64,000 bases of DNA from Flavobacteriales bacterium (GTDB taxonomy: Bacteria > Bacteroidota > Bacteroidia > Flavobacteriales_D > Crocinitomicaceae). Shown here piece by piece: positions 1 to 11,580 of this stretch. The stretch is from the NCBI GenBank assembly GCA_947470515.1, contig CANITF010000002.1:1-64000 (forward strand). Reading direction: 5' to 3'. The notes beneath the pieces were generated by a model, which did no database searches, was not told where the DNA came from, and saw only the letters and a program-made list of their open reading frames with translations. A program made the translations under genes and the position numbers. Each line of letters opens with the position of its first letter. The first letter of the stretch is position 1.

Positions 1-785
1 CCATCACCAGGAATATTGGAGTTTAATGGATTTGAAGGCGAGGTATCTGGAGCAATGAATCCAGGATTATTAACTGAATTATCTGTCCAGTTTCCATTAA
101 TGTCCGCATAGAAAGTATCAGTTGGCCAAGCTCCTGTATGATTGGTGTGCCCGTCTGGGTTATTTAATCCAGAATACGGTACAGGAACATTCCCTAATAA
201 AACAAGCAGTTTTGTAGCGTTTGGGTTTTCATTATAGGTAGAAACAATTGCGCTCTTTACTGTTGTTACTAAATCTGTTTTACTGACATAAAGTGTTTTT
301 GGAAACCAACCATCTGCCTCGAGATCAATCAAAAATAAATCGAGACTTGCTTGAAAAACAGGATTCGCAATAAATGAATTTTCAATAACGACAATGGCAA
401 TTCCTCTATCACTATTAGCACTAATATTTATCCCAGATGAAAGGTATCCAAATTTAACTAGGGTTGAAGGGGAATTCATTTGGATCTTATAATCATAAAG
501 AACTCCTGTACTCACTGTAGCATCAATATATTGGCTTGCGCTTGATGGTAAAGTTGCTAATATGCTTCCCCAAGTTGTAGCTGTTTTTAATTTGCGGTAT
601 ACTATAAAATTTGTAGCATCAGTATCAGGCAGCCAGGAAATAGTAATTGAAGCTGGACTGTTTACTATTGTAGCTTCAGCTTGTATGGAAAGTGAGTCCC
701 CAAAGGTGGTTTGTGCATAAGAAATTGTAGCATCCAATAAGAATATTAGAGGCAATAGGAATAGGCTTAAAGTAACTATTTTCAT
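1..785 (-). CDS. Secreted Fn3 / peptidase-C25-like protein (N-terminal part)
   Basis: The open frame starts at an ATG (785) and runs off the left edge of the window, so only about 261 N-terminal residues are present. Residues 1-24 form a signal peptide ending in SYAQ. A fibronectin-III-like stretch follows (about 35-110, with ITISWLPDTDATNFIVYRK). The next region, LLVLLGNVPVPYSG then DGHTNHTGAWPTDTFYADI, matches the style of large secreted Bacteroidota proteins whose core resembles the gingipain (C25) fold. No catalytic His/Cys pair can be judged in this fragment. A T9SS sorting domain is expected at the missing C-terminus, but that is inference. The gene stands alone; the gap to the next gene is 336 bp. 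Confidence 0.75.
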   Translation of the reverse strand, partial: MKIVTLSLFLLPLIFLLDATISYAQTTFGDSLSIQAEATIVNSPASITISWLPDTDATNFIVYRKLKTATTWGSILATLPSSASQYIDATVSTGVLYDYKIQMNSPSTLVKFGYLSSGINISANSDRGIAIVVIENSFIANPVFQASLDLFLIDLEADGWFPKTLYVSKTDLVTTVKSAIVSTYNENPNATKLLVLLGNVPVPYSGLNNPDGHTNHTGAWPTDTFYADINGNWTDNSVNNPGFIAPDTSPSNPLNSNIPGD

Positions 786-2170: not shown

Positions 2171-5100
2171 TTATTTAATTAACGTAAGGTTGCCTTTGAA
2201 TTTTTGAGTTTCTACATCTGTATCAAGCATGATTTCAAGGACATATACAAAAACGCCACTATCCAATTCTTTCCCTTTGAATTTCCCATCCCATGAGCCA
2301 TCAGGTGATGTCGTTTCAAATACAACCTCTCCCCAGCGATCAAATACCTTTAAATTCAATTCTTTTACACAATCCGGCTTTATTTTTATCCTAAACGAAC
2401 TATTAACAGCATCTCCATTCGGTGAAAATGCAGTTGGAATAAACAATTCCCCACAGTCAATCTCAATTGTAACGATTGCATCATCAGTGTCAATACAGCC
2501 ATTTACATCTGTCATTGTTGCTGTATAGGTGGTGGTTGTAACTGGGCTAACATTAGTTGAAACTGCATCTCCAGTATTCCATACGATTGTTCCATTTCCT
2601 GACGCCGTTAACGTGACAGTTTCTCCAGCCTGAATTAAATAATCTGGTCCTGCATTTACAATTTCAGCTGTTGGAATAGCATTTAGATTCACATCAAATG
2701 GAGCTGAACCACATCCTGTTGTTAAATCAACTACCGTAACACTATATGTTTGTGAGGGTGTTAAACTTGAGAAAACATATGTGCCAACTGTCATTGGTAC
2801 GCCATCAATATAAATTTGAAAATTAGATCCAATTGGAGAAACGATTTCAATGGTCCCACTTTGAACCAAACATGTGGGTTGAGCATTAATGTTCACAACA
2901 GGCGCTGCTGTACCTGGAGGCAGAGGATTGACAAATAGCGAAGTACTTAATGAAACGCAACCAGTCGATAAATCTTGTACATAAACATCATACGATGAAT
3001 TTGGGGATAATCCTGCAAAATTAGTTCCTGATTGGAAAATAACACCATCAATGCTGTAAGTGTAATTCGTTCCACTTGGCGCTGTAATATCAATCGTAGC
3101 TGTTCCAATAATGCAAGAAGGCTGAACAGTTACTGATGCGGTAGGAGCAGTTGGTGCTACTGGAAGTGCCGCAATATTCACACTTGTTGACATGGAAGAT
3201 GCACATCCATTGGCGTCTGTTACTGTGAAAGTATAACTCGTATTTGCTGCAAGTTCTCCAAAAACAACTGAAGATCCATTTCCACTGACTGTTGCAGATA
3301 ATGGAGTAGATGTGATTGTCCAATTCCCTGCAGGAAGGCCACTTAAAGAAACAGAACCATCAGCTAATATACAAGTAGGATCAACAACTAAACCTAAAAC
3401 CGGTGCAGTTGGATTCGTCGGTATCGCTGAGATTGATACAGATGCTGAAACTACCGAAGTACAACCTTGGTCATTTGTAACAGTATAAGTATAACTGGTT
3501 GAAGGAATCAATCCACTAATTAATGTAGTTATTCCAGTTCCAGTTGTTAACGATCCTGGAGTTGAATTTAATATCCATGTTCCAGAAGTTGGCAAACCAT
3601 TTATAACAACTGAACCAGTATTAATCAAGCAATTTGGTTGTGTGATAGTTCCAATAATTGGAGTTGAAGGTGTTATTGGCTGAGCAGCGATTATTGCCGA
3701 AGTTGAAGAAGATGACAAACAACCACTTCCATCGGTTACAATAAATGTGTATGTTGAACCAGCCGTTAAACCCGAAAATGTTGTATTCAAACCTGAACTA
3801 ATTAAAGGTGTTCCACTAGGAGAAGGAGTTATTGTCCACGAACCTGATGGCAATCCACTCAAAGCTACAGAACCAGTGCTAATTGTACAAGTTGGTTGAG
3901 TAATAACTCCAACTATTGGAGGGGTTGGTGTATACAAACTTATTATTGCATTTGAAGATACAACTGAAGCACAAAGTGTCGCTGTATTCGTTACCATGAA
4001 CGTATATGTTGCATTCGACGGTAAACCTGTGAAGGTGGCAGTTGTGCCAGACCCTGATTGCGTTAATCCACCAGGTGACGCTGTGATTGTCCATGCCGTT
4101 GCAGGTAAACCACTTAACGCTACACTTCCTGTAGGCGTTAAACAAGACGGTTGCGCAACTAAGCCAACAATTGGGGCTGATGGTTCAGTTGGAATTGCAT
4201 TTATTACAGCAGAAGTAGAACTTATCGAAGTACAACCAGAAGAATTTGTAATTGTAAAGGTATAACTCGCAGCGGCAGGTAATGAGCTGATTGTTGTAGT
4301 TGTGCCAGTTCCAGTAATAGTACCACCTGGAATTGTAGTTAAAGTCCATGTTCCGGCGGATGGTAATCCTGATAATGCAACACTACCAAAAGTAACCGCG
4401 CATGTCGGTTGAGTAATTAATCCAATGATAGGTGCACTAGGCGTTAACGGTTGTGCATTTATTATTGCAGCAGTCGATGTTCCAGACAAACATCCACTTG
4501 AATTTGTCACAACAAACGTGTAACTTGAGCCAGCAGCTAATGTAGAGAATGAACCTGTAGTTCCAGTTCCAGTTATAGTGCTTCCGCCCGGACTAGCAGT
4601 AACAGTCCAAGTTCCAGTAGCCGGCAAACCACTGAGAGAAATATTACCAGTAGAGACTAGGCAAGTTGGTTGCGTAATTACACCAATAATAGGTGTGGTT
4701 GGTGTATATAAACTAACAACGGCGTTTAAAGATACTGCAGATATACATCCAACAGAATTTGTAACTGTAAAAGTATAAGTAGTGTTTGATGTCAATCCCG
4801 TAAATGAGACAGAAGTTCCAGTGCCAGTTTGAGTAAGTCCACCAGGTGAAGCAGTAATTGTCCAAGTTCCACTGTTTGGCAATCCACTTAATGTAACAGT
4901 GCCATTTGGAGATAAGCAAGAAGGCTGTGTAATTGCTCCAATTATTGGGGCAGTTGGCGGTGCAGGAATTGCATTAACCACTGCATTTGCAGAAGCCAGT
5001 GACATGCATCCAGCAGCATTGGTTACGATAAAAGCATAACTAGTATTAGCTAATAATCCTGTAAAACTACATGTTGACCCAGTTCCAGATAGAGTCGCTC

Positions 5101-6169
5101 CGCCCGGATTAGCTGTAATAGTCCAAGTACCTGTTGTTGGAAGACCGCTTAATGCAACAGTTGCGGTTGGTGTTGCACAAGTTGGTTGGGTTATTGTTCC
5201 AATTGTTGGAGCCGTTGGATCAATACATGACAAGGTTGTAAAACTACCTGCTTCTATGTACACAACTGCATCGTAGGCAGCGTCACCAACATCCGTTATT
5301 AATAATTTTATGTGATACGTTTGCCCTGGAGTTAATCCTGTTTGTTGAGCTGTAAGAATTACAGTGTTACCGTTAAGTTCAGTTCCATCTATTGTTCCTA
5401 AATATTCTGGAGTTGATACATTTTGAGTCCAGGCTGGGTTTGCTGATTGACAATTTGAAGCTGAAGGAGCCCCACCACTTGACCCAACTGTTCCGCCGTT
5501 TACGGAATTAATTGAAACTTGAGAACCATTTGCCAAACGCGCAATATTTCTTGCATTATTAGTAAATCCTTGACCTCCAGCTATTCCTGGTCCACTTATA
5601 AGAAAGCCAAATTTATCATTATAAGATGAACATTGGTAATTTATAAAACCACTATTGTCAGTATATTCTTCTGAACCGAAAAGATAACGAAATTGAACGT
5701 TATCCGAAACTGGCACAAAATCAAATTCCAAGATTGCCCCATTGAAATAATTTGTTGTTCCAGCCAATACATTTAAATCATTTATTATTGTAGGACACGT
5801 TCCCGTTTCCCTTAATTCACCCGCTGTACAAGATGTAAATCCTGTGGTCATTTGCGCTGCAGCTTGAGGGTTGGCGCCCAATGTTAAAGGAATATCAGAA
5901 GTATTTCCAGTAGACAAAACGATTCCAGAAGTAAATCCCATCTGCGCTAAAGTTGTTGTTGCGGTAGTGAAATATCCTACTTGGTATCTATTTGAACTAT
6001 TATATACACCTGAGAAATTGATATTTGACACAGTTGTTCCACTGCCTGAAGGAACCAAAACTCCATTGACTAATTGGTTCGTTGTATAGAGCGTATTATT
6101 TATTGTTATTTGAGAAAATGTAGTTCCCGCAATAACAAGCAGCAATGCGACTAAAAGATTTTTTTTCAT
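2171..6169 (-). CDS. Giant secreted adhesin-like protein: choice-of-anchor L, Ig-like repeats, T9SS type B C-terminus
   Basis: A 1332-residue protein with a signal peptide (1-20, ending TFSQ). Residues about 35-308 form a choice-of-anchor L domain (FVPVSDNVQFRYLFGSEEY then FGFLISGPG). About 317-1145 hold ten tandem Ig-like repeats of about 83-86 residues, each with a QPTC/QPSC opening, an LSGLP turn, a YTFTVT strand and a GC motif. Another Ig-like unit follows at about 1150-1225. The last 90 residues are a type B sorting domain (FIPTAFSPNGD, FDRWGEVVFE, GSWDGKFKGKELDSGVFVY). It should be exported by T9SS and kept at the surface; adhesion is inference. The downstream PorP/SprF-like gene is probably its dedicated partner. 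The Cys in each repeat suggests disulfide bonds. Confidence 0.93.
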   Translation of the reverse strand: MKKNLLVALLLVIAGTTFSQITINNTLYTTNQLVNGVLVPSGSGTTVSNINFSGVYNSSNRYQVGYFTTATTTLAQMGFTSGIVLSTGNTSDIPLTLGANPQAAAQMTTGFTSCTAGELRETGTCPTIINDLNVLAGTTNYFNGAILEFDFVPVSDNVQFRYLFGSEEYTDNSGFINYQCSSYNDKFGFLISGPGIAGGQGFTNNARNIARLANGSQVSINSVNGGTVGSSGGAPSASNCQSANPAWTQNVSTPEYLGTIDGTELNGNTVILTAQQTGLTPGQTYHIKLLITDVGDAAYDAVVYIEAGSFTTLSCIDPTAPTIGTITQPTCATPTATVALSGLPTTGTWTITANPGGATLSGTGSTCSFTGLLANTSYAFIVTNAAGCMSLASANAVVNAIPAPPTAPIIGAITQPSCLSPNGTVTLSGLPNSGTWTITASPGGLTQTGTGTSVSFTGLTSNTTYTFTVTNSVGCISAVSLNAVVSLYTPTTPIIGVITQPTCLVSTGNISLSGLPATGTWTVTASPGGSTITGTGTTGSFSTLAAGSSYTFVVTNSSGCLSGTSTAAIINAQPLTPSAPIIGLITQPTCAVTFGSVALSGLPSAGTWTLTTIPGGTITGTGTTTTISSLPAAASYTFTITNSSGCTSISSTSAVINAIPTEPSAPIVGLVAQPSCLTPTGSVALSGLPATAWTITASPGGLTQSGSGTTATFTGLPSNATYTFMVTNTATLCASVVSSNAIISLYTPTPPIVGVITQPTCTISTGSVALSGLPSGSWTITPSPSGTPLISSGLNTTFSGLTAGSTYTFIVTDGSGCLSSSSTSAIIAAQPITPSTPIIGTITQPNCLINTGSVVINGLPTSGTWILNSTPGSLTTGTGITTLISGLIPSTSYTYTVTNDQGCTSVVSASVSISAIPTNPTAPVLGLVVDPTCILADGSVSLSGLPAGNWTITSTPLSATVSGNGSSVVFGELAANTSYTFTVTDANGCASSMSTSVNIAALPVAPTAPTASVTVQPSCIIGTATIDITAPSGTNYTYSIDGVIFQSGTNFAGLSPNSSYDVYVQDLSTGCVSLSTSLFVNPLPPGTAAPVVNINAQPTCLVQSGTIEIVSPIGSNFQIYIDGVPMTVGTYVFSSLTPSQTYSVTVVDLTTGCGSAPFDVNLNAIPTAEIVNAGPDYLIQAGETVTLTASGNGTIVWNTGDAVSTNVSPVTTTTYTATMTDVNGCIDTDDAIVTIEIDCGELFIPTAFSPNGDAVNSSFRIKIKPDCVKELNLKVFDRWGEVVFETTSPDGSWDGKFKGKELDSGVFVYVLEIMLDTDVETQKFKGNLTLIK
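2650..5225 (-). repeat. Tandem Ig-like coding repeats with a three-repeat super-unit
   Basis: Ten tandem coding repeats of about 250-258 bp lie inside the giant gene. The linkers closing repeats 1-7 cycle AIP, SLYT, AQP, AIP, SLYT, AQP, AIP. Repeats 2 and 5 also share GGLTQ where the others differ. The DNA encoding the two SLYT linkers lies about 773 bp apart (near 3925 and 4698). The array therefore grew at least once by duplicating a block of three repeats. Repeats 9 and 10 are more divergent. Confidence 0.85.
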
Positions 6170-6356: not shown

Positions 6357-7442
6357 TTAATTCCCATACATCATCAGAAATGCTTTTAAGAAACCATTTA
6401 TATCACCATCCATTACAGCGTCTACATTTCCAGTTTCATATCCTGTTCGAACATCTTTTACTAATTTGTATGGTTGCATGACATAGTTACGAATTTGAGA
6501 ACCCCATTCTATTTTTTTCTTCCCAGCTTCAATTTCGTTTCGTTTTTCAAGACGTTCGCGAAGAACCAACTCATATAATTGAGAACGGAGTAATTGCATT
6601 GCTTTTTCTTTGTTCCCTAATTGAGATCTAGATTCAGAATTTTCAATAATAATTCCAGAAGGAGCGTGACGTAAACGAACCGCAGTTTCTACCTTATTTA
6701 CGTTTTGCCCACCAGCACCACCCGATCTAAAAGTATCCCAAGTAATATCGGCTGGATTGATATTTATTTCAATATTGTCGTCTACTAAGGGATAAACGTA
6801 AACTGAAACGAAAGAAGTATGTCTTTTTGCATTTGAATCGAATGGTGAAATACGCACTAAACGATGCACCCCATTTTCTCCTTTTAAATAACCGAAAGCA
6901 AATTCACCATCAAATTCTAATGTTACTGTTTTAATTCCAGCAACATCTCCTTCTTGGTAATTGAGTTCTTTTATTTTGAAGCCATTTTTTTGACCCCACA
7001 TCATGTACATACGCATCAACATAGAAGCCCAGTCGCAGCTTTCCGTTCCACCGGCGCCAGATGTAATTTGTAAAACAGCACTTAAAGAATCTTCTTCGCC
7101 TGAAAGCATGTTTTTCAATTCAATTTCTTCTACTTTATCCGCAAGAATAGTAAATTGTTCATCCGCTTCTTTCGGCTCGGCCATTCCTTCTTTGACAAAT
7201 TCAATCAAAACCTCTAAGTCATCAAATGAGGATTTCAATTGGTCAAAAGCGTCTATCCAAAATTTCAATAATCGAATTGCTTTCATTTGAATTTCTGCAG
7301 CTTTTGGATCATCCCAAAAAGTAGGATCTTGAGATTTCAATTCCTCTTCTTGCAGTTGCAAGCGCTTTTCATCTATTTTTAGATAAGCTCCAATAGCAAC
7401 AATTCTTGCTAAAACTTCTTTAATTTGATCTGAATTTACCAT
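6357..7442 (-). CDS. prfB: Peptide chain release factor 2
   Basis: A 361-residue class I release factor that recognises UGA/UAA and triggers peptidyl-tRNA hydrolysis on the ribosome. The codon-recognition motif SPF is at 199-201 (RLVRISPFD). The catalytic GGQ is at 244-246 within [20 protein letters not shown]. Length is normal for the family. Many bacteria interrupt this gene early with an in-frame UGA and a +1 frameshift (E. coli: TAT CTT TGA C). Here the equivalent point reads TAT CTA AAA ATA GAT (Tyr-Leu-Lys-Ile-Asp) with no stop, so the frame is continuous and that autoregulation is absent. It is divergent from gcvH, with the two starts about 100 bp apart. Confidence 0.97.
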
Positions 7443-7981: not shown

Positions 7982-8016
7982 ATTCGTGATTCGTGATTCG
8001 TGATTCGTGATTCGTG
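7982..8016. repeat. Heptanucleotide array ATTCGTG x5
   Basis: Five perfect 7-bp units follow the gcvH terminator. It is one of several period-7 arrays in intergenic DNA of this window. Confidence 0.9.
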
Positions 8017-8036: not shown

Positions 8037-8097
8037 ACCACATAGCGGTGCGCTGAGTTTATCGAAGTGACACATAGATCACATAGGTCACATAGAT
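8037..8097. repeat. Dispersed intergenic element with CACATAG units
   Basis: It contains CTGAGTTTATCGAA (8055-8068), the reverse complement of TTCGATAAACTCAG found near 56228. Several CACATAG-type units of about 9 bp flank it. The same pairing of a TTCGA word with CACATAGG units recurs at 35.9-36.2 kb. Confidence 0.6.
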
Positions 8098-8147: not shown

Positions 8148-8182
8148 AATTTGTAATTTGTAATTTGTAATTTGTAATTTGC
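8148..8182. repeat. Heptanucleotide array AATTTGT x5
   Basis: Four AATTTGT units and one AATTTGC, ending 13 bp before the stop codon of the next gene (minus strand). Rotated, the unit is ATTTGTA, similar to ATTCGTG and ATTCGTA at other loci. Confidence 0.9.
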
Positions 8183-8194
8183 AACTATTAACTT

Positions 8195-9076
8195 TTAATA
8201 ACTAGAAGAAGATCCTCCGATATTCTCAATCGGATGCCACGTCGTTTTAATTTCTTGTGTATCAGAAATCATATATAAATCTTGAGAATCAGCCTTGTTC
8301 CAATCTTTAGAATAAGAAAAAACACGTTTTACATTTAAGACTGAATTTTCCTGAATTTGTTTGAGCGCTTCCAAATCATCTCCACCATAAACAATAGCAT
8401 TCACATCCATGTGAGTTGATAACGTTTCATTCAGTTCTTTGTTTGTACCTGTAAGGATATTCACAACACCACCTGGAACATCAGAAGAATTCAAAACCTC
8501 TGCGAATGTCACTGCACACAATGGTAAATTTTCAGAGGCGATTACAACGCATGTATTTCCACCACAAATAACTGGGAGCATTATTGACACCAAACCTATT
8601 AAAGACGTATTTTGCGGTGCTAAAATTCCTACAACACCTGTTGGTTCTAATACTGAAAAATTGAAGTGCGATGAAGCAACAGGATTGACAGAACTCAATA
8701 CTTGTTGATATTTATCGCACCAACCAGCGTAATATACTGTGCGCTCAATCGATAGATTCACTTCCTCTTCAGCGTTCTTTTTAGTTGAACCTTGTTGAAT
8801 TAGTTCTGCAATGAATTGCTCTTTTCTTCCTTCCAGCATTTCTGCAATTCGATACAGGATTTGACCTCTGTTGAAAGCTGCACGTTCGGACCATGATCCA
8901 AACGCTTTTCGAGCTGCAACGATGGCATTTCGAACATCTTTTCTTGATGACAAACAAATATTACCCAACGGTTTCCCTTTTTTGTCTAACGGTGAATAAA
9001 ACCGCCCAGATTCAGTTCGAGGAAATTGTCCTCCGATATAAATCTTATATGTTTTTAGTATTTCCAATCTGCTCAT
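8195..9076 (-). CDS. Non-catalytic aldehyde dehydrogenase-like protein (ALDH16 second domain)
   Basis: A 293-residue protein that aligns with the N-terminal (coenzyme-binding) half of aldehyde dehydrogenases: YIGGQFPRTESG, AARKAFGSWSERAAFNRGQI, PTGVVGILAPQ, GGNTCVVIASENLPL, PGGVVNILTG. It stops before the catalytic domain, so the nucleophilic Cys and general-base Glu are absent, and it ends in a Ser-rich GGSSSSY tail. This is not random truncation. Bacterial ALDH16 proteins carry exactly such a second, inactive half-domain fused after an active one. Here it is a separate gene, 106 bp downstream of a full ALDH gene. Likely role: structural partner of that enzyme. The function is inferred from ALDH16; the absence of the active-site region is seen directly. 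Confidence 0.8.
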   Translation of the reverse strand: MSRLEILKTYKIYIGGQFPRTESGRFYSPLDKKGKPLGNICLSSRKDVRNAIVAARKAFGSWSERAAFNRGQILYRIAEMLEGRKEQFIAELIQQGSTKKNAEEEVNLSIERTVYYAGWCDKYQQVLSSVNPVASSHFNFSVLEPTGVVGILAPQNTSLIGLVSIMLPVICGGNTCVVIASENLPLCAVTFAEVLNSSDVPGGVVNILTGTNKELNETLSTHMDVNAIVYGGDDLEALKQIQENSVLNVKRVFSYSKDWNKADSQDLYMISDTQEIKTTWHPIENIGGSSSSY

Positions 9077-9182
9077 CTTATAGCATTTTATCTTTGATAA
9101 TTTACTTGTTCTTTTTTGGCTATAATGCCGAATTAGCTTTTGTTATTCTGGATTTTCCAGTGTTAAAAAAGCTTAATCGGTA

Positions 9183-10652
9183 TTAACTTAATTTTACGTA
9201 AGAATTCAATCCATGTAAACCGCCTTCTCTTCCAAAACCACTTTCCTTGTACCCACCAAAAGGTGAAGTTGGATCAAATTTATTATAGGTGTTCGCCCAA
9301 ATAACTCCGGCTCTCAATTTTGAGGAGAGGTTAAATATACGTGATCCTTTATCGGTCCAAACACCTGCAGCTAAACCAAAAGGGGAATTATTTGCTTTTT
9401 GAATTACCTCATCGACCGTTCTAAAGGTTTGGATTGTCAAAACAGGTCCGAAAATTTCTTCTTGAGCAATTACACTCGATTGTGCTACGTTGATGAACAA
9501 CGTTGGTGCACAATAGAATCCTTTTGTAGGAATCGAACACTTAGGTTGATACATTTCTGCACCTTCCTGTTTTCCAATTTTGATGTATTTATGAATCGTT
9601 TCTAATTGTTCTTTCGAATTTATAGCTCCAATATCTGTGTTTTTATCCAGTGGATTGCCAAGATATAGCGAATCCATTCGACTCTTCAATTTTTGAATCA
9701 CCAAATCCGCAACTGATTCTTGCACATATAAACGTGACCCTGCGCAACAAACGTGACCTTGGTTAAAAAAGATTCCATTGACAATTCCTTCAACGGCTTG
9801 ATCAATTGGCGCATCATCAAAAATAATATTAGCTGATTTGCCACCCAATTCTAGTGTCAATTTTTTAGAAGTTCCAGCAAGTGCTTTTTGAATAATCTTT
9901 CCAACATTTGTTGAACCTGTAAACGCAATTTTATCAATATCAGGATGATTCACAATTGCCGCCCCTGTGTCTCCATGACCGGTTACAATATTTACAACTC
10001 CAGCCGGTAATCCAGATTCTTCAATAATCTCTGCTAAGATTAATGCTGTTAAAGGGGTTGTTTCCGCAGGTTTTAAAACCACGGTATTTCCAGTAGCTAA
10101 TGCAGGTGCAATTTTCCAAGCGGCCATTAATAATGGGAAATTCCAAGGAATAATTTGTCCGGCGACACCTAACGATTCAACTTTCCTATTTGGAAAAGCA
10201 TATTCTAATTTGTCGGCCCAACCAGCATAATAAAAGAAGTAATTACATGCTAAAGGAACATCAATATCTCTTGATTCACGAATTGTTTTTCCTGCATCTA
10301 ATGTCTCAGCAACAGCCAATTCTCTTGCGCGTTCTTGCATCAATCGTGCTATTCGAAAAATATATTTTGCTCTTTCTGCTGGCGGCATAATTGACCAAAC
10401 ATCGGTATATGCTTTGCGAGCAGCTTTAACAGCTTTATCAACATCATCTTGATTTCCATGAGCAACTTCAGCAAGTATCTCTTCATTTGCCGGATTAATC
10501 GTTTTGAAATATACCCCAGAGGAAGGCTTCACCCATTTCCCATCGATGAACAAGTCATATCTCTTTTTAAGATTGAGATGAGACGTACTTTCAAGTGATG
10601 GAGAATAATTCCAGTCACTTACATGTTCAGTATTTTTTTTCTTTGTCGCCAT
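9183..10652 (-). CDS. Aldehyde dehydrogenase (catalytic subunit, ALDH16-like)
   Basis: A 489-residue NAD(P)-dependent aldehyde dehydrogenase. Substrate-binding motif PWNFPLLMAAWKIAPALATG at 169-188; FTGSTNVG at 244-251; general base E268 in LELGGKSAN; nucleophile C302 (with C303) in FFNQGHVCCAGSR; and C-terminal PFGGYKESGFGREGG. The start is taken as MATKKK, whose ATG lies one base after the deoC stop codon. Longer starts would overlap deoC. The close coupling to deoC suggests that it oxidises the acetaldehyde released by deoxyribose-phosphate aldolase (inference). The next gene downstream supplies an inactive ALDH half-domain. Confidence 0.93.
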   Translation of the reverse strand: MATKKKNTEHVSDWNYSPSLESTSHLNLKKRYDLFIDGKWVKPSSGVYFKTINPANEEILAEVAHGNQDDVDKAVKAARKAYTDVWSIMPPAERAKYIFRIARLMQERARELAVAETLDAGKTIRESRDIDVPLACNYFFYYAGWADKLEYAFPNRKVESLGVAGQIIPWNFPLLMAAWKIAPALATGNTVVLKPAETTPLTALILAEIIEESGLPAGVVNIVTGHGDTGAAIVNHPDIDKIAFTGSTNVGKIIQKALAGTSKKLTLELGGKSANIIFDDAPIDQAVEGIVNGIFFNQGHVCCAGSRLYVQESVADLVIQKLKSRMDSLYLGNPLDKNTDIGAINSKEQLETIHKYIKIGKQEGAEMYQPKCSIPTKGFYCAPTLFINVAQSSVIAQEEIFGPVLTIQTFRTVDEVIQKANNSPFGLAAGVWTDKGSRIFNLSSKLRAGVIWANTYNKFDPTSPFGGYKESGFGREGGLHGLNSYVKLS

Positions 10653-10653
10653 T

Positions 10654-11580
10654 TTAATCAATTGAAAAATAATCGGAAGATTGGTAGACACCAGTTTCCA
10701 TCTTCATGATTTGCATTAATATATCATTTGCTAAACTGCTTGCACCGAATCGAAACCATTCATTCGTTAACCAAGCATTACCTAGAATTTCTTTAACCAT
10801 AACGAGATTATGCAGGGCTAATTTTGATGTTGATATTCCACCCGCAGGTTTCATACCTATCATTATTCCGGTTTTATCATAATAGTCTTTTACTGCCATC
10901 AACATGGTATACGTCACTTGCATTGTTGCAGCAGGTTGAATTTTCCCAGTAGATGTTTTAATAAAATCTGCACCTGCATAAATAGCAATATCACTCGCTT
11001 TCCGAACATTATCTAAAGTTGCTAATTCACCTGTTTCCAGAATGACTTTCAATCTGGCTTTGCCGCACGTTTCTTTTATTTTTGCAATTTCATCAAACAC
11101 AAAATTATATTCACCTGACAGAAATTTCCCTCTAGAAATAACCATATCGATTTCATCAGCACCTTCATCCAAAGCAAATTGCGTATCGCGAATTTTAACA
11201 TCTAATGGTGCTTGTCCACTTGGGAAAGCCGTTGAAACAGATGCTACTTTCACTCCAGTTCCTTTAACTTCATTTTTTGCTATGCGAACCATGCTCGGAT
11301 AAACACATACAGCCGCGACGGAAGGTAAATTTGGGTGAACATCATGCAAATGAAGCGCTTTATAACACATTTGTTTTACTTTTCCAGGAGTATCTTTCCC
11401 TTCTAAGGTTGTTAAATCAATCATATTCAAGGCTATTTTCAAACCTTGTAATTTTGATTCATTTTTAATACTTCTAGATTGAAATCTTGCAACACGTTCT
11501 TCCACTCCCACTTTATCAATACTAGGAGAATAAATATTATCTGGATGAATGATTTCCTTTTTTACTAGTTTGTTTTTCAT
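10654..11580 (-). CDS. deoC: Deoxyribose-phosphate aldolase
   Basis: Cleaves 2-deoxyribose-5-phosphate to glyceraldehyde-3-phosphate and acetaldehyde in deoxynucleoside catabolism. The 308-residue protein has the Schiff-base Lys208 in ADFIKTSTGK and the second active-site Lys244 in MKPAGG. Its length fits the longer DeoC subgroup (E. coli about 259), with extra N-terminal residues. It is the first gene of the deoC-ALDH-ALDH-like run. A -7-like TATCTTTG (minus strand, 11604-11611) lies 23 nt before the ATG, without an obvious -33 box. Confidence 0.95.
   Translation of the reverse strand: MKNKLVKKEIIHPDNIYSPSIDKVGVEERVARFQSRSIKNESKLQGLKIALNMIDLTTLEGKDTPGKVKQMCYKALHLHDVHPNLPSVAAVCVYPSMVRIAKNEVKGTGVKVASVSTAFPSGQAPLDVKIRDTQFALDEGADEIDMVISRGKFLSGEYNFVFDEIAKIKETCGKARLKVILETGELATLDNVRKASDIAIYAGADFIKTSTGKIQPAATMQVTYTMLMAVKDYYDKTGIMIGMKPAGGISTSKLALHNLVMVKEILGNAWLTNEWFRFGASSLANDILMQIMKMETGVYQSSDYFSID

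Follow-up and report, generated by a model that had tools for sequence, protein, structure and literature searches.

Why would a bacterium keep an aldehyde dehydrogenase (ALDH) without its whole catalytic domain beside a complete one? The question is raised by 64,000 nucleotides (nt) of a Flavobacteriales bacterium (assembly GCA_947470515.1, contig CANITF010000002.1, positions 1 to 64,000, here called the window). The window carries, on its minus strand, a tandem of deoC, an intact ALDH gene and, last, a gene for a half-ALDH of 293 amino acids (aa). The initial annotation had read the pair as a split ALDH16, with the half protein perhaps acting in trans as an oligomerisation subunit, and had proposed phylogeny, co-occurrence with deoC and a predicted complex as checks. 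The half protein is an ALDH minus its catalytic domain, and it is the dead partner in a conserved and widespread two-gene variant of ALDH16. Probably, this variant serves deoxyribose breakdown, with the half protein as a required substitute for a protomer.

Identity of the encoded proteins

The first gene of the tandem, deoC (10654 to 11580, minus strand, 308 aa), encodes a deoxyribose-5-phosphate aldolase and passes the curated NCBIfam equivalog TIGR00126 with 176.6 bits against a cut-off of 117.3. The ALDH start codon follows 1 nt past the deoC stop, and the catalytically complete ALDH (9183 to 10652, minus strand, 489 aa, ATG at 10652) is the counterpart of ALDH16 domain 1. The listing of open reading frames (ORFs) gives an upstream GTG as its start, and most queries began at 10655, one residue earlier. 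An intergenic gap of 106 nt (9077 to 9182, minus strand) separates the ALDH stop from the half-ALDH gene (8195 to 9076, minus strand, 293 aa), the product of which combines an NAD (nicotinamide adenine dinucleotide)-domain fold with oligomerisation strands and is the counterpart of ALDH16 domain 2. The two ORFs are separate, with an intervening stop codon, in the window and likewise in all 112 linked relatives measured, where the gap has a median of 13 nt compared with the 106 nt found here.

Of the 461 positions of the Pfam model Aldedh, the ALDH covers 1–457 and the half protein 14–232; neither Pfam nor NCBIfam holds a family of its own for the half-ALDH. The best match of the half protein in the PDB is the ALDH16 of Loktanella sp. 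(6mvr, E 7.8e-65; next protein 2.2e-35), a bacterial enzyme reportedly described by Liu and Tanner in 2019 (PDB 6mvr, 6mvs, 6mvt and 6mvu). Within this chain, residues 501–764 score 161 bits and the N-terminal domain 58 bits. The ALDH also finds its best PDB match in 6mvr, over residues 13–476 (560 bits; next protein 443.5 bits). Because the best matches fall on the C- and N-terminal parts of the same chain, each gene has its counterpart in one of the two parts of a single known enzyme. As the two units are not joined in one polypeptide, the pair is classed as a variant of ALDH16 rather than as one of its ordinary members.

All 113 relatives of the long protein (113/113) carry the motifs that surround the catalytic Cys, Glu and Asn, compared with 0/127 relatives of the short protein, and all 127 of the latter also lack the NAD-site sequence motifs. 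For these counts and for those of the C-terminal strand given below, rows were pre-filtered by score and length, each motif was a simple expression, and some genomes are represented twice. The predicted catalytic Cys302 codon of the window ALDH lies at 9747 to 9749 (minus strand), in the motif GHVCCAGSR, of which we take this cysteine to be the catalytic one. A congener carries the half gene at 98% identity, the reading frame of this gene is open across the phylum sample described below and beyond, and 42 positions of the protein are kept by at least 98.5% of 166 sequences.

The observation made in the initial annotation is therefore confirmed: the half protein lacks the whole catalytic domain and is nevertheless preserved, and the domain pair of ALDH16 is encoded by two adjacent genes directly behind deoC. 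Its emphasis on the half size holds for the protein itself, but this is no loss special to the organism: in the bacterial ALDH16 of known structure, the second domain (6mvr 501–764) comprises only about 265 residues and is equally short.

Co-retention with deoC

In a phylum sample of 296 genomes, in which the half sequence was scored at E 1e-35 or better, it occurs in 58 genomes: 54 times as a separate gene and four times within open frames of 813–1061 aa that include the ALDH part. The ALDH (at least 64% identity) is found in exactly the 54 genomes with a separate half gene, and deoC (at least 56% identity) in exactly the same 54/296. The half gene alone or the ALDH alone was found in none of the 296 genomes. 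Four matches (G205, G253, G257 and G348) report an internal stop, which is taken to lie beyond the real C-terminus because the half ORF is open over 285–296 aa in these loci (L066, L089, L090 and L067).

Retention does not require linkage. G072 and G093 are two clearly unlinked cases, as the three genes are all retained on different contigs and no partner gene is present in the stretches fetched (around the half gene and the ALDH in both genomes, and around deoC in G093). The three genes of G189 also lie on different contigs; this genome is not counted as clearly unlinked because 0.9 kb separates its ALDH from the end of a contig and the surroundings of its half gene fall outside the fetched stretches. 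G329 has 6.6 kb between its half gene and its ALDH.

A sample of 60 genomes from nearer relatives, which overlaps the phylum sample in part and includes less complete genomes, gave a similar distribution. The ALDH was found in 39/60, and all 39 also possess the half gene, whole or in part. For the half gene the count is 41/60, and the two additional genomes without a full ALDH are both cut at contig ends: in G013 the contig edge leaves the final 78 aa of the ALDH, and G048 has a 52-aa N-terminal ALDH piece beside deoC. A deoC without a full ALDH is seen in G023, where the contig ends 34 bases past deoC, and in G059, which has a 200-aa ALDH piece at a contig end. Nine genomes in this sample, all from the family to which the window belongs, have neither gene. 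In 14/14 further genomes checked, the ALDH is present at 65% identity or more. The co-occurrence with deoC considered in the initial annotation is thus found in the same 54/296 genomes, and the two exceptions among nearer relatives are cut at contig ends.

Complementary anatomy

The AlphaFold (AF2) model of the half protein has a mean predicted local distance difference test score (pLDDT) of 91.0 and a predicted template modelling score (pTM) of 0.88. It superposes on ordinary ALDH chains with 1.5 Å over 270 residues, for example with residues 7–284 on 17–494 of 4qf6. The 50 structure-comparison matches listed for it do not include 6mvr; as many ALDH entries are tied there, this absence carries no weight. 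The C-terminal strand distinguishes the two proteins: a KTVWV-type motif is present in 8/8 ordinary ALDHs (11 were taken, of which three lacked the anchor motif and stayed unscored), in 0/113 long proteins and in 137/137 short proteins and fused second domains. Two-gene ALDHs stop just short of this strand, and the truncated C-terminus of the window ALDH (9183 to 9200, minus strand) ends with Y485-V-K-L-S. The half protein has the strand at residues 274–282 (8231 to 8257, minus strand) in its predicted model, and E275, K277, T278, W280 and H281 are each conserved in 166/166 sequences.

According to the available part of PMC8160307, Glu487 of ALDH2 forms bonds with two arginines, namely Arg264, where helix G ends, and Arg475, on a loop of the facing subunit; the E487K variant destabilises the dimer. 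Two alignments of the half protein with the ALDH2 chain 1o01_C (6..283 to 16..495 and 6..287 to 16..499) give a C-terminal offset of 212, which places E275 at the Glu487 position provided that no gap lies between; the residue is E in 166/166. Its R251 is assigned to the Arg264 position by motif (161/166), and the Arg475 loop is absent. In the ALDH, R475 is found in 164/166 paired relatives (codon at 9228 to 9230, minus strand, in the window; the motif presumably carries the ALDH2 number 475) and Lys at position 264 in 138/166. Its 487 position holds no conserved glutamate (K in 90/166, E in 10/166). R475 of the long protein and R251 and E275 of the short protein occur jointly in 160/166 pairs.

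As judged from these aligned positions, each protein keeps the half of the ALDH2-type inter-subunit contact that its partner has lost. Only a mixed dimer would contain one full contact set, because an ALDH homodimer lacks the glutamate and a homodimer of the half protein lacks the arginine loop. It is mainly for this reason that an obligate heteromer is favoured. On balance, it appears rather likely that the pair forms an obligate ALDH heteromer of wide occurrence, with the contact shared out between a catalytic and a dead subunit so that only the pair can make it.

The tail of the half protein (window 8198–8230) is modelled with low confidence, ends in GGSSSSY and is a possible contact arm. 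A tail ending in Tyr is shared by some relatives, including the Actinomycete locus L190; others end just past the strand at HPVGF.

Phylogeny and distribution

In a mixture-model tree of the NAD domain (47 rows), a branch with 100/100 support separates all half proteins and fused second domains from the ordinary ALDHs and the first domains. The short protein therefore groups with the ALDH16 second domains, apart from other ALDHs, in agreement with the initial annotation. The fused second domains form a clade of their own (100/99), and the two-gene clade in the second-domain tree reaches only 94/85. In full-length mixture trees of the catalytic unit, the fused and the two-gene sequences come out as sister clades (99/98 and 100/99). 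In a half-length tree under a simple model, fused ALDH16 was nested inside the two-gene clade, and in the half-length mixture tree it was again joined to an Actinomycete row. Nesting of the fused form with three Actinomycete rows, a group chosen once the half-length mixture tree had been seen, was disfavoured in the full-length approximately unbiased (AU) test (p-AU 0.019).

A single switch between the two-gene and fused states, in either direction, would be enough to explain these trees. Because the two forms are sister clades, fission of a fused gene is not shown. Of the "split" ALDH16 in the initial annotation, the two-gene form thus stands, and the splitting event is one of two possible directions.

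The two-gene form extends beyond the phylum. Among the best 80 of at least 592 candidate loci in a scan of named genomes, the fetched stretches contain the ALDH, whole or cut, in 72/80 and deoC in 63/80. Eight loci lack the ALDH in the fetched stretch; seven were checked (L136 was excluded), and the ALDH lies elsewhere in the genome in all seven. Named isolates with the two-gene form belong to Fluviicola chungangensis, Ferruginibacter, Streptomyces, Saccharopolyspora, Nocardioides and Labedaea, and metagenome-assembled genomes (MAGs) with it are titled Balneola, Neomarinimicrobiota, Planctomycetes and Verrucomicrobia. In the Actinomycete phylum, the half gene (at least 55% identity) is present in 28/149 genomes, the query's own counted, and the ALDH adjoins it in 9/10 loci inspected. 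Fused genes were found in plasmid records of Sinorhizobium, Marivivens, Nitratireductor, Phyllobacterium, Caballeronia and Pacificitalea. deoC adjoins the fused gene in 10/10 loci, namely all six plasmid records and the four fused loci of the phylum sample.

Four MAGs titled Chitinophaga pinensis, Streptomyces griseus, Spirochaetia and Woeseiaceae (L100, L116, L122 and L132) carry half genes 64–77% identical to that of the window. Taxon names of MAGs should not count as transfers, because some of those titles may be mislabelled.

Proposed function and alternative explanations

DeoC acts on deoxyribose 5-phosphate. Its products are acetaldehyde and glyceraldehyde 3-phosphate, as stated in the available part of PMC6365646. 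The tandem may accordingly represent a two-gene ALDH16 coupled to deoxyribose breakdown, in which DeoC would cleave its substrate into these two products and the ALDH would oxidise acetaldehyde or some similar aldehyde to its acid. Acetaldehyde is suggested as the substrate by the adjacency of deoC in both gene forms; the supply of acetaldehyde assumed in the initial annotation is backed to this extent by gene order and established enzymology. The half protein would be a required non-catalytic subunit in the place that the second protomer takes in an ordinary ALDH dimer, lending the ALDH a C-terminal strand and the Glu487-equivalent glutamate. Its placement would be that of domain 2 inside single-chain ALDH16, where tertiary contacts are described as mimicking quaternary ones (available part of PMC8160307). 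The likely assembly would be (ALDH + half)2, imitating a tetramer.

Covariation between the two proteins is weakly in favour of docking of the half protein on the ALDH. It was calculated for 166 two-gene pairs (about 90 effective); a first run had included fused rows. Couplings between the catalytic domain of the ALDH and the oligomerisation strands of the half protein, a cell defined after the first ranking, account for 9 of the top 40 inter-protein couplings (expected 1.97, p ~0.009, circular shifts) and for 16 of the top 100 (expected 4.85, p 0.015, circular shifts). Figures are quoted for this wider cell and not for the narrow helix region 435–448, which had been picked after the first ranking.

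A docked and required half protein also has several results against it. The covariation is exploratory, with a cell defined after the first ranking and an effective number of pairs of about 90, and the two top-ranked couplings, N137-F68 and N441-C120, fall outside the tested cell. The predicted complex points the other way. It was modelled as a read-through chain of the natural relative L129, in which the two genes are in frame and the TAG was read as Gln, with an alignment that contained 13 more read-through rows, 15 rows of the ALDH alone and no fused ALDH16 row; half-only rows were dropped as MAFFT placed them on the ALDH. The AF2 chain reached a pLDDT of 82 and a pTM of 0.59, with a linker of 14 residues and 14 rows for the half part. 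Each part folded, but their placement is unlike that in 6mvs, with a root-mean-square deviation (rmsd) of 15–16 Å over both parts. In view of this linker and these few rows, the mismatch is taken to carry little information and does not count as a refutation. Furthermore, all 10 fused second domains seen have Q or D at the Glu487 position, so that the glutamate itself is not universal in ALDH16. Unlinked genes speak for a joint need, which does not imply contact between the proteins. Finally, G055 has a deoC of the same type, and neither ALDH gene was found in it. Three deoC-like genes of 44–49% identity occur in G238, G288 and G296, which have neither ALDH gene.

The deoC of G055 (C147, 800–1675, L218) is 77% identical to that of the window, and the genome is 96% complete. 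Neither this type of ALDH nor the half gene was found in this genome, including the 799 bp downstream of deoC to the contig end.

The failed read-through docking would suit an ALDH that is active alone as a homo-oligomer, with the half protein as an optional stabiliser or regulator bound under some conditions only. The ALDH carries all catalytic motifs, and the loss of a C-terminal strand is no proof against dimer formation. Such independence is nonetheless unlikely for an ALDH without this strand and without the Glu487-position residue, which the half gene accompanies in 54/54 and, pieces counted, 39/39 genomes of the partly overlapping samples. Still less probable is a role elsewhere in the pathway without protomer replacement, such as a tether between DeoC and ALDH for channelling or a binder of sugar phosphate or nucleotide. 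The same-type deoC in the same 54 genomes would fit such a role, and a Rossmann-type domain could bind a ligand; however, fused ALDH16 joins the domain to the ALDH rather than to DeoC, the NAD-site motifs are absent from 127/127, and the covariation, calculated for ALDH–half pairs with DeoC outside the analysis, points to the catalytic domain of the ALDH. A functionless, decaying duplicate, which the absent catalytic domain might suggest, is highly improbable for a gene with such conserved positions that is retained when unlinked; as the initial annotation had held, this is not simple decay.

Decay or an assembly artefact as the origin of the half gene is ruled out by its conservation. For the pseudo-domain acting in trans as an oligomerisation subunit, anatomy, covariation and co-retention speak in favour, and the sole docking attempt failed; overall, the interpretation given in the initial annotation is supported.

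Further features of the window

The ORFs around the tandem are presumably ordinary housekeeping and catabolic genes, judging by their appearance. Close to the half gene, positions 8052–8069 carry the interspersed repeat GCTGAGTTTATCGAAGTG, which has 44 sites in its own genome when two mismatches are allowed, against 0 sites of the reversed control, and is flanked by 7-bp tandem repeats at 7982–8016 and 8148–8181. A 1332-aa protein with many similar repeated modules is encoded at 2171–6169, and we take its C-terminal part to resemble gliding-motility secretion domains. The prfB of E. coli is known for its programmed frameshift. A prfB-like ORF of 361 aa at 6357–7442 runs uninterrupted from its ATG, with no sign of such a frameshift.

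Comparison with known systems

To our knowledge, no function is settled for the additional domain of ALDH16. Reviews, in the parts available, mention only a possible regulating role. Among the open-licence PMC matches listed, no title describes a two-gene ALDH16, although a description elsewhere is possible, and the matches for ALDH16 with deoxyribose and for ALDH16 with Streptomyces concern other subjects. In well over a hundred sampled genomes, including those of culturable Streptomyces and Fluviicola, the enzyme is naturally cut at the ALDH16 domain boundary. Because nature has cut it there, the domain can be removed, restored and mutated without engineering. A half-ALDH outside any Pfam or NCBIfam family of its own is thereby assigned a likely function, and ALDH16 is placed beside deoC in both its one-chain and two-gene forms. 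The glutamate of the half protein lies at the position that is changed in the ALDH2*2 variant of humans, so that mutation offers a precise test. If the proposed role is true, the two forms are a natural experiment on the interchangeability of tertiary and quaternary contacts.

The closest known system is the Loktanella ALDH16, an active ALDH. It has the same two parts, one homologous to each window gene, and differs in carrying them in one chain with a linker, whereas the window encodes two proteins. Single-chain ALDH16 of other bacteria shares the deoC neighbour in 10/10 fused loci; in contrast, four fused second domains are 33–37% identical to the half protein of the window. Human ALDH16A1 also contains two ALDH-type parts in one chain. 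It is reported as a pseudoenzyme in which the catalytic triad is absent, according to the available part of PMC10650815. Compared by description only, it is a pseudoenzyme bearing the same family name, but the bacterial ALDH described here has the catalytic motifs.

Ordinary homo-oligomers of the ALDH1/2 type have the same catalytic motifs, and 11 ordinary ALDHs of the phylum are 37–48% identical to the window ALDH. Their C-terminal strand is their own, whereas the window ALDH has none. Finally, pseudoenzyme partner subunits are dead paralogues kept alongside an active relative. The half protein resembles them as a dead paralogue retained with an active ALDH. It differs in having lost a whole domain and not just active-site residues, and in keeping the oligomerisation strand that the active ALDH has lost.

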